DNA of 10,601 bases from Candidatus Woesebacteria bacterium (GTDB lineage Bacteria > Patescibacteriota > Microgenomatia > UBA8517), in the NCBI GenBank assembly GCA_026394855.1, contig JAPLZT010000023.1, forward strand, positions 1 through 10,601. The letters run 5' to 3'. Shown here piece after piece: positions 3,835-5,552 of the stretch. The first letter of the stretch is position 1; each line of letters opens with the position of its first letter. The notes under the pieces are model-generated. The model searched no databases, was not told the origin of the DNA, and saw only the letters and a list, made by a program, of their open reading frames with translations. The translations under genes and the position numbers were made by a program.

Positions 3835-4167
3835 TTAAACATACCTGCTGATTTTTACTATTATAATATCGAGATTAAGTTGCATTAATTGTGCAGTTGA
3901 ATTTACCCTTACAAGTACTGATTGAAAGTATGTTGTGCTAAAAGAAACTGGCCCTAAAGATAAATTTAACTTCTCCGTGCCTTTTGCAACTGTCTCAACA
4001 GCCTTTTGAATATCACTCAATTCTCGATCAATACTACCCAATATTGTCATGTGTGGTTTAAAAACAGGGCCATTTTGTACTATGGATAGGTCGTTAATAA
4101 TTTTGCTAAGCTCATCAAAAACTGATTGAGGCGGGATAATCCAAATACTATATTTCATTTTTGTCAT
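3835..4167 (-). CDS. 2H phosphoesterase (2'-5' RNA ligase / cyclic phosphodiesterase-like), C-terminally truncated
   Basis: The protein begins MTKMKYSIWIIPP and reaches FKPHMTILG, the first H-x-T motif of the 2H superfamily (LigT/CPDase), which act on 2',3'-cyclic phosphates or RNA ends. A conserved YFQSVLVRVNST strand follows. The second catalytic H-x-T/S motif, expected some 60 residues later, is absent: the frame ends after LNLDI with an unrelated short tail, and no continuation is readable in the other frames. The product is therefore probably inactive or a gene remnant. The start is uncertain. A GTG at 4218 lies 3 nt past the encoded CCA of tRNA-Gly, while ATGs at 4167 or 4158 better match where family members usually begin. 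No SD is visible at any of them. Confidence 0.62.
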   Translation of the reverse strand: MTKMKYSIWIIPPQSVFDELSKIINDLSIVQNGPVFKPHMTILGSIDRELSDIQKAVETVAKGTEKLNLSLGPVSFSTTYFQSVLVRVNSTAQLMQLNLDIIIVKISRYV

Positions 4168-4221
4168 TTTATGTAAGTTTCTAGTAACTTTATGTACATA
4201 TATGTTTATTTCTGTCACATC

Positions 4222-4295
4222 TGGAGCGGGTGAGCGGAGTCGAACCGCCCTTTCTACCTTGGGAAGGTAACGTTGAGCCGATCAACTACACCCGC
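4222..4295 (-). tRNA. tRNA-Gly(CCC), CCA encoded
   Basis: Acceptor GCGGGTG/CACCCGC, D arm GTTG-ATCGGCT-CAAC, anticodon loop TTCCCAA (CCC), and T arm GGCGG-TTCGACT-CCGCT (one G-T pair). The discriminator is T, as expected for glycine tRNA, and CCA is encoded (4222-4224), unlike the other two tRNAs here. The first 14 nt overlap the end of the GIY-YIG gene on the same strand. Confidence 0.95.
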
Positions 4296-4566
4296 CTATT
4301 TCTATATCGTTTATTAGTCTTCTTTTCAAGTATCCTCGTCCAAATCCAGTTTTTAATTGTAATTCTCTTTTACGTGCATCGGTCTTATTTCGACAAGCTT
4401 CGTAGTAAACAAGTTCAATTATATCAAAAATTTTAGTAGTATTTACTGATTTTGATTTATGGACTTCAACCCTCCCTTTTAGATCGGAAGTAGAACCCAC
4501 ATAAAATTTGCGTTTATTTGTTTTAGAATTTTTGCAAGAGAGTACGTAAGTGTAATGGAAAGCCAT
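4282..4566 (-). CDS. GIY-YIG domain protein (YhbQ/UPF0213-like)
   Basis: The 94-aa protein consists of a single GIY-YIG nuclease fold. YTYVL (5-9) and FYVGST (21-26) form the two-strand signature. R32 in DLKGRVEVH is the expected catalytic Arg and E68 in RKRELQLK the metal-binding Glu. LKTGFGRGYLKRRL (71-84) is the usual C-terminal motif. Such small stand-alone proteins are common in bacteria and their substrate is mostly unknown. The last codons (GGCS) and the TGA stop lie inside the 5' end of tRNA-Gly. RNase P cleavage of a shared transcript would therefore remove the stop codon. The start at 4566 has no clear SD. The intact catalytic residues suggest a functional protein. Confidence 0.88.
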   Translation of the reverse strand: MAFHYTYVLSCKNSKTNKRKFYVGSTSDLKGRVEVHKSKSVNTTKIFDIIELVYYEACRNKTDARKRELQLKTGFGRGYLKRRLINDIEIGGCS

Positions 4567-5281: not shown

Positions 5282-5291
5282 GAGCCTCTTG

Positions 5292-5552
5292 CGGGGCCGA
5301 AGGGATTCGCACCCTCGATCTCCTCCGTGCTTCCTTTTTCAAGGTTTGGACTATCTCATCCCCACTCCGCTTATTAAAGCTTCGAGGGGCTAGGTATATA
5401 GTCTCTACACATTTACACTACAAAGTAGTGATTTAGCTCGGGATTGTCTTTTTTCAAAGATTTCCCCGAATTAGCCTAGTTTTACATTCCGAATTGCTTC
5501 GGAGCGCTGCCATTTTGACAGGGAGGCGCGTTAACTGCTACGCTACGACCCC
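5292..5552 (-). tRNA. tRNA-Asp(GTC) interrupted by a group I intron
   Basis: The exons at 5518-5552 and 5292-5329 join to a 73-nt tRNA. It has acceptor GGGGTCG/CGGCCCC, D stem GCGT/ACGC, anticodon stem CCTCC/GGAGG around loop CTGTCAC (GTC), and T stem GAGGG/CCCTT. The discriminator is G, an identity element of aspartate tRNA. CCA is not encoded (CAA follows). The intron lies between bases 35 and 36. Two elbow positions are unusual: the D loop AGCAGTTA has one G where GG is expected, and the T loop is TGCGAAT, with G at position 55 in place of T. It is transcribed divergently from polX. Confidence 0.93.
5330..5517 (-). ncRNA. Group I self-splicing intron (small, no ORF) in tRNA-Asp
   Basis: All core elements can be drawn on the minus strand. 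P1 pairs exon CTGT with intron GCAG, placing a U-G wobble at the 5' splice site. P2 is TCCGAA-GCAA-TTCGGA. A P-like TTCGGGGAAATC is followed by P5 TCTTT-GAAA-AAAGA, and Q is AATCCCGAGC. P6a is CACTAC/GTAGTG. R is GTAGAGACTATA, S is GAGATAGTCC, and P7 is GACTAT/ATAGTC. P3 can form as GGCTA/TAGCC. P8 contains GCTT/AAGC, and P9 is CCTT-GAAA-AAGG. The last intron base is G, as required. At 188 nt it carries no homing endonuclease. It resembles tRNA-type (IC3-like) introns, but the subgroup is inferred. Confidence 0.92.

Follow-up and report, generated by a model that had tools for sequence, protein, structure and literature searches.

The window (the whole stretch of 10,601 nucleotides of a Candidatus Woesebacteria contig that was analysed) carries on its reverse strand a tRNA-Asp(GUC) gene that is interrupted within the anticodon by a group I intron (table 1). 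Joining bases 5552-5518 to bases 5329-5291 yielded in ARAGORN a 74-base tRNA-Asp(gtc) whose junction falls within the anticodon loop, between positions 35 and 36, which is the full cloverleaf that the original prediction, made by inspection of the letters, had expected from the spliced exons. When the possible joins near the ends of the Rfam match were enumerated under the conditions that a T precedes the intron and a G closes it, the U35/C36 join obtained the highest score (121.5), the runner-up (115.4) not being a normal tRNA. The predicted insertion point was thus recovered, the predicted terminal G was found at position 5330 as the one giving the best tRNA join (a G being demanded by the enumeration), and the predicted limits of the intron, 5330..5517, proved to be exact, base for base. 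ARAGORN run with its intron option also detected the tRNA, with a slightly shifted boundary at which the intron does not end in G; run without this option, it reported no tRNA at the tRNA-Asp locus.

A cmscan search matched the Rfam group I intron model RF00028 to window positions 5330-5533 (−) with 62.0 bits (E 4.1e-14, model positions 1-253), the gathering score being 50 bits, and the match extends 16 nt into the 5′ exon; the assignment to group I is therefore borne out by the covariance model. Elements resembling P, Q, R and S and helices P2-P9 were located, in agreement with the earlier naming of P, Q, R, S, P2, P5, P6a, P7 and P9, and the P3/P7 pseudoknot core by which group I introns are recognized is present (in an alignment of 11 introns P7 pairs in all 11 rows, and three of the five P3 pairs show double-sided changes). 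In P1, where CUGUC faces GGCAG, the U-G wobble foreseen at the end of the 5′ exon is found in 11 of 11 aligned introns, a T before the intron being a condition of the enumeration, and the last pair is C-G in eight rows and G-C in three. The ORF list contains no frame of at least 60 aa that overlaps 5330-5517 and hence no homing endonuclease, as had been stated. The length of 188 nt, previously described as very compact, turned out to be ordinary: the 57 distinct tRNA introns collected range from 182 to 281 nt, and seven of them are shorter than the one in the window. A protein-spliced bulge-helix-bulge intron that merely resembles group I could be imagined from the location in a tRNA anticodon loop, but is scarcely credible in the face of the full-length RF00028 match, the P1 wobble, the P3 and P7 strands and the final G, and of a position, 35/36, that differs from the canonical 37/38 given in PMC4033280.

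Table 1. Exons, intron, paired elements and T-loop position of the interrupted tRNA-Asp(GUC) gene (window coordinates).
Feature	Position	Strand	Evidence
5′ exon, tRNA-Asp(GUC) bases 1-35	5518..5552	(−)	ARAGORN on joined exons
Group I intron, 188 nt, final G at 5330	5330..5517	(−)	RF00028, 62.0 bits; splice enumeration
3′ exon, C36 to 3′ end, CCA not encoded	5291..5329	(−)	ARAGORN on joined exons
P1, CUGUC (5521-5517) with GGCAG (5511-5507), U35-G wobble at splice site	5507..5521	(−)	sequence; paired in 11/11 rows
P2, hairpin with GCAA loop	5488..5503	(−)	folding; 4/6 pairs altered on both sides
P3, 5479-5475 with 5394-5390	5390..5479	(−)	3/5 pairs altered on both sides
P4, 5469-5464 with 5443-5438, elements P and Q	5438..5469	(−)	Rfam alignment; no variation
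P5, within P4, 5460-5456 with 5451-5447	inside 5438..5469	(−)	4/5 pairs altered on both sides
P6a, hairpin	5416..5430	(−)	6/6 pairs altered on both sides
P7, GACUAU (5403-5398) with AUAGUC (5354-5349), elements R and S	5349..5403	(−)	invariant, 11 rows
P8, hairpin	5360..5389	(−)	5/5 pairs altered on both sides
P9, hairpin with GAAA loop, then AAG	5333..5344	(−)	folding; drawn P9 pairs in 43.2% of alignment cells
T-loop U54 G55	5310..5311	(−)	U55 in the other 26 distinct Asp exon pairs

Sequence and covariation both speak for the cloverleaf, for the fold of the intron and for its splice sites. The intron has a folding z-score of −3.30, none of 200 shuffles being equally stable. The P1-P9 structure was drawn from the window and its pairs were counted on 11 aligned tRNA introns, six from tRNA-Asp and five from tRNA-Asn: the drawn structure pairs in 90.0% of the cells, against 76.2% for shuffles and 32-44% when it is slid by one to three columns, and 27 of the 54 pairs show a change on both sides, a count reached by none of 500 shuffles. 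The shuffles take no account of how closely the rows are related, and the slid controls are biased towards a structure derived from a single row. A chance fold was rejected on the folding z-score and the alignment counts. P4 and P7 do not vary and are therefore uninformative on covariation, while the poor counts for P9 are due to P9 loops that do not align.

The genome of the window consists of 835,613 bases on 159 contigs, with an estimated completeness of 90.45% and a contamination of 3.21%; judged from its relatives, it is a member of the Microgenomates. The other tRNA-Asp whose possible presence the original prediction had wished to see checked does not occur among the 41 uninterrupted tRNA genes of this 90.45%-complete assembly, so that the interrupted gene appears to be the only tRNA-Asp(GUC) gene of the genome, and aspartate decoding appears to depend on splicing; being incomplete, the assembly could lack a second copy. 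The earlier statement that every aspartate codon decoded by this tRNA depends on splicing therefore gains an apparently sole tRNA-Asp gene, whereas the dependence itself stays at the level of appearance and the splicing at that of prediction. A weak tRNA match (29.6 bits) in the same genome, at G000:C83:3727-3798 (L056), has an eight-base anticodon loop and no assigned isotype; as a candidate second tRNA-Asp it was discarded, the match being weak and the anticodon loop, TTATCCAA, containing no GTC.

Six group I matches were found in this genome, one each in tRNA-Asp and tRNA-Asn, three in 23S rRNA and one in 16S rRNA. The tRNA-Asn(GUU) gene is interrupted at 35/36 by a 242-nt group I intron (L001:1491-1741, (−)), and no uninterrupted tRNA-Asn(GUU) is present among the 41 tRNA genes; with neither isotype found uninterrupted, both Asp and Asn seem to depend on intron removal. 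The three RF00028 matches within the 23S rRNA match (L003-L005), two of which are above the cut-off, and the weak one (21.8 bits) within the 16S rRNA match (L006) sit on contigs C143 and C51. The Met(CAU) tRNA of this genome is uninterrupted, unlike that of intron-bearing relatives.

The window copy has three oddities. At what we take to be P9.0, the pairing beside the terminal G that we regard as a helper and not as a defining feature of group I, the partners 5347-5346 (AA) and 5332-5331 (AA) cannot pair. In each of the other 26 distinct Asp introns, the two bases after the CC of P7 can form both pairs with the two before the final G; of all 57 introns two have no anchor motif, and among the 55 that could be scored 42 allow both pairs. 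The T-loop has G55 (at 5310) and the D-loop (5532-5539) reads AGCAGTTA, with no GG. The other tRNAs of the genome carry U55 (37 of 41) or C55 (4 of 41). A search pattern for tRNA-Asp with G55 matched one of 373 genomes of the class, the window's own, a weak negative since it was run with no U55 positive control; the 26 other distinct Asp exon pairs are the better comparison. Since P9.0 cannot form, the second splicing step may be weak in this copy; more generally, G55, the GG-less D-loop and the missing P9.0 may be detrimental to splicing, or may be artefacts of the assembly.

One rival explanation is that the odd features of the 3′ end and the T-loop are errors of the draft, in its consensus or its assembly, and that the true gene resembles those of the relatives. 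G55 and the P9.0 bases do lie within about 40 bases of each other (the odd D-loop being some 200 bases away), and a search of the genus returned the window's own genome only, so that this explanation keeps a small probability; however, the tRNA is joined exactly at the end of the intron, and the stems differ from those of the relatives yet stay paired, which is unlike the outcome of scattered errors. A slightly smaller probability is assigned to a decaying locus, namely a pseudogene that has lost P9.0 and the elbow pair, with an intact tRNA-Asp in the unassembled tenth of the genome. The P9.0 that is unable to form, G55 together with the D-loop and an assembly of this completeness and fragmentation are compatible with decay, but the stems of the joined tRNA pair despite a sequence differing from that of the relatives, the ARAGORN score of 121.5 falls within the range of the relatives' spliced tRNA-Asp genes (115.7-124.6), the core motifs of the intron are intact, and the 41 uninterrupted tRNA genes include no other tRNA-Asp.

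By taking these data together, the element is very probably a group I intron, small and with no ORF, that belongs to a tRNA intron lineage of the Patescibacteria, sits at U35/C36 of what is apparently the only tRNA-Asp(GUC) gene and would splice itself out to restore the anticodon. By analogy with the group I family, the pre-tRNA would be transcribed, the GGCAG guide of the intron would pair with the last exon bases CUGU, and a guanosine held in P7 would attack after U35. The final G of the intron would then take the place of the guanosine in P7, and U35 would be joined to C36 to give back the GUC anticodon. If the intron is spliced as predicted, every aspartate residue in the cell depends on a ribozyme at the anticodon. 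A practical consequence is that tRNA scans lacking an intron option, the mode in which ARAGORN missed the gene, would report the genome as devoid of tRNA-Asp; in circularized, mostly CPR, genomes group I introns made some tRNAs hard to detect, according to PMC8172020.

Among 56 genomes, 36 (the window's own included) gave RF00028 matches. At least 74 loci were enumerated, of which at least 31 were placed in tRNAs, two of these (L008 and L018) having been resolved later; the remaining 43 of the 74, including L003-L005 and L006, gave no accepted tRNA join and were left out of the tree described below. The sites in the 56 genomes are tRNA-Asp 35/36 in at least five genomes, tRNA-Asn 35/36 in at least 13 and tRNA-Met(CAU) 33/34 in at least 13. 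The Met(CAU) introns lie between U33 and C34 (for instance L009, L019 and L057), in a host tRNA that, judging by its sequence, is probably the initiator. A pattern describing Asp-like anticodon arms that are interrupted matched at 18 places in 17 of the 373 genomes of the class (12 in tRNA-Asp, in 11 genomes including the window's own, four in tRNA-Asn and two with no assignment), and a similar pattern at 29 loci among the GTDB-220 species genomes (24 Asp, three Asn and two with no assignment, one of which, L124, is apparently the same place as the Asp locus L097). Both patterns demand CUGU...GCAGC together with one particular arm, so that the counts are minimum values and hosts may exist in other phyla as well. 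The GTDB-wide loci with a named lineage belong to Woese-, Davies-, Collier-, Harrison-, Zambryski-, Nomura-, Yanofsky- and Roizmanbacteria, Microgenomates, Paceibacterota and Patescibacteria; membership in the Patescibacteria group was checked for Woese-, Harrison- and Daviesbacteria, and we presume it for Collier-, Zambryski-, Nomura-, Yanofsky- and Roizmanbacteria and the other named lineages. In one genome (G269) there are two distinct tRNA-Asp genes, both interrupted by a group I intron of their own (L099 and L113).

With the same bond interrupted in 11 of the 373 class genomes and in 24 of the 29 GTDB-wide pattern loci, the earlier view of aspartate as an unusual host has to be revised: it is unusual only relative to the classic list of bacterial tRNA introns. 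These, as described in the literature on cyanobacteria and proteobacteria (Leu-UAA, fMet, Arg and Ile2), differ in host tRNA and in lineage from the present intron at 35/36. Introns like that of the window recur in Patescibacteria, and it is therefore not surprising but well representative of a known kind. A 2025 preprint, cited in PMC12641178, deals, by its title, with group I introns in Patescibacteria tRNA genes, and thus with the same kind of element in the same bacteria, so that the phenomenon is already known; the new part of the result is the evolutionary detail on the Asp introns. No bacterial tRNA-Asp group I intron was met in a literature search outside which preprints and most subscription papers fell, and no claim of a first report is made. 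In the same bacteria, and with introns of the same catalytic family, insertions classed as group I make up 134 of 378 in 16S and 433 of 968 in 23S rRNA genes of CPR members, as given in PMC11270868, which also states that the 23S introns often encode LAGLIDADG endonucleases, in contrast with the window intron and its lack of a listed ORF.

The tree set comprised 74 tRNA introns, reduced to 57 distinct ones (27 Asp, 17 Asn and 13 Met); L027, which resembles a Met(CAU) tRNA intron, was left out of it, and L013 and L066 probably have misplaced intron ends. In the tree, 21 Asp introns form one group (support 100/99), while the six from the window's family are separate from these and lie next to, or intermingled with, six Asn introns, of which five come from the same family. 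Three further Asn introns of this family (L018, L031 and L033) fall in a distant Asn group. The mean identity of the window intron is 0.707 with the five other Asp introns of its family and 0.668 with the six adjoining Asn introns, and decreases to 0.579 with the Met introns, 0.576 with the other 21 Asp introns and 0.542 with the other 11 Asn introns. The Asp intron of one genome (G019) has the Asn intron of that genome as its best match (161 of 189 aligned bases), and core letters are plainly different between the two sorts of Asp intron. With groups picked after viewing the tree, the test rejected neither a single clade for the whole set of 27 Asp introns (p-AU 0.083) nor one for the six from the window's family (p-AU 0.308); the tree does not favour the all-Asp clade and contains at least three label changes, and the tree tool warned of long branches meeting.

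Judged by these comparisons, there seem to be two kinds of Asp intron, that of the window grouping with tRNA-Asn introns that share the CUGU target, and two origins are likely. The tRNA-Asn(GUU) introns of relatives resemble the window intron in bond (35/36) and CUGU target, and six of the 17 also in their core; they differ in the host tRNA, and at pair 5 of P1, where every one of the six Asp rows has C-G, three of the five Asn rows have G-C. The likeliest route by which the intron reached tRNA-Asp, though one that is no more than suggested, is exchange with an intron in the tRNA-Asn of related genomes, because the two tRNAs present an identical CUGU target at this bond. A more complete account, which we hold tentatively and trust somewhat less than we doubt it, is that the tRNA-Asp bond was invaded at least twice by distinct lineages, one now found in Daviesbacteria and many Parcubacteria-type groups, the other in the Woesebacteria-like family through exchange with tRNA-Asn, and that the window copy works with no P9.0 and an altered elbow. 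Asn and Asp introns lend themselves as a natural system for testing how introns with no ORF spread, for example through reverse splicing into an anticodon loop that matches, as opposed to endonuclease homing.

Empty sites were also found. A match to the window's DNA polymerase X gene lies within 1.5 kb of tRNA-Asp in nine of nine intron-less loci of relatives, the intron-less pattern having matched only nine of 56 genomes, so insensitively that no frequency of empty sites can be derived from it. The same neighbour is present within 1.5 kb in five of the six intron-bearing genomes of the family; in the sixth, G010, there is a LysM gene on the other side and no polymerase X match in the flank examined. 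The sharing of a neighbour gene by filled and empty sites indicates that the intron was gained or lost at an orthologous gene. A scan of viral contigs for the window's 5′ exon gave no match.

A 94-aa ORF for a GIY-YIG nuclease lies in the window at 4282-4566 (−), its end overlapping the start of tRNA-Gly(CCC) by 14 bases. GIY-YIG matches are scattered through the family, occurring in 24 of the 29 genomes searched (the window's own included), and in G008 a 68% relative of the window's gene lies at 2.3 kb from a tRNA-Asp that has no intron; in the intron-bearing G010 no match was obtained at E 1e-5. The gene is therefore not supported as the intron's endonuclease, such genes being scattered, once near an intron-less tRNA-Asp and absent from the matches of an intron-bearing genome. 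Between tRNA genes of the window there is also a cyclic phosphodiesterase-like ORF (PF07823) at 3835-4218 (−).
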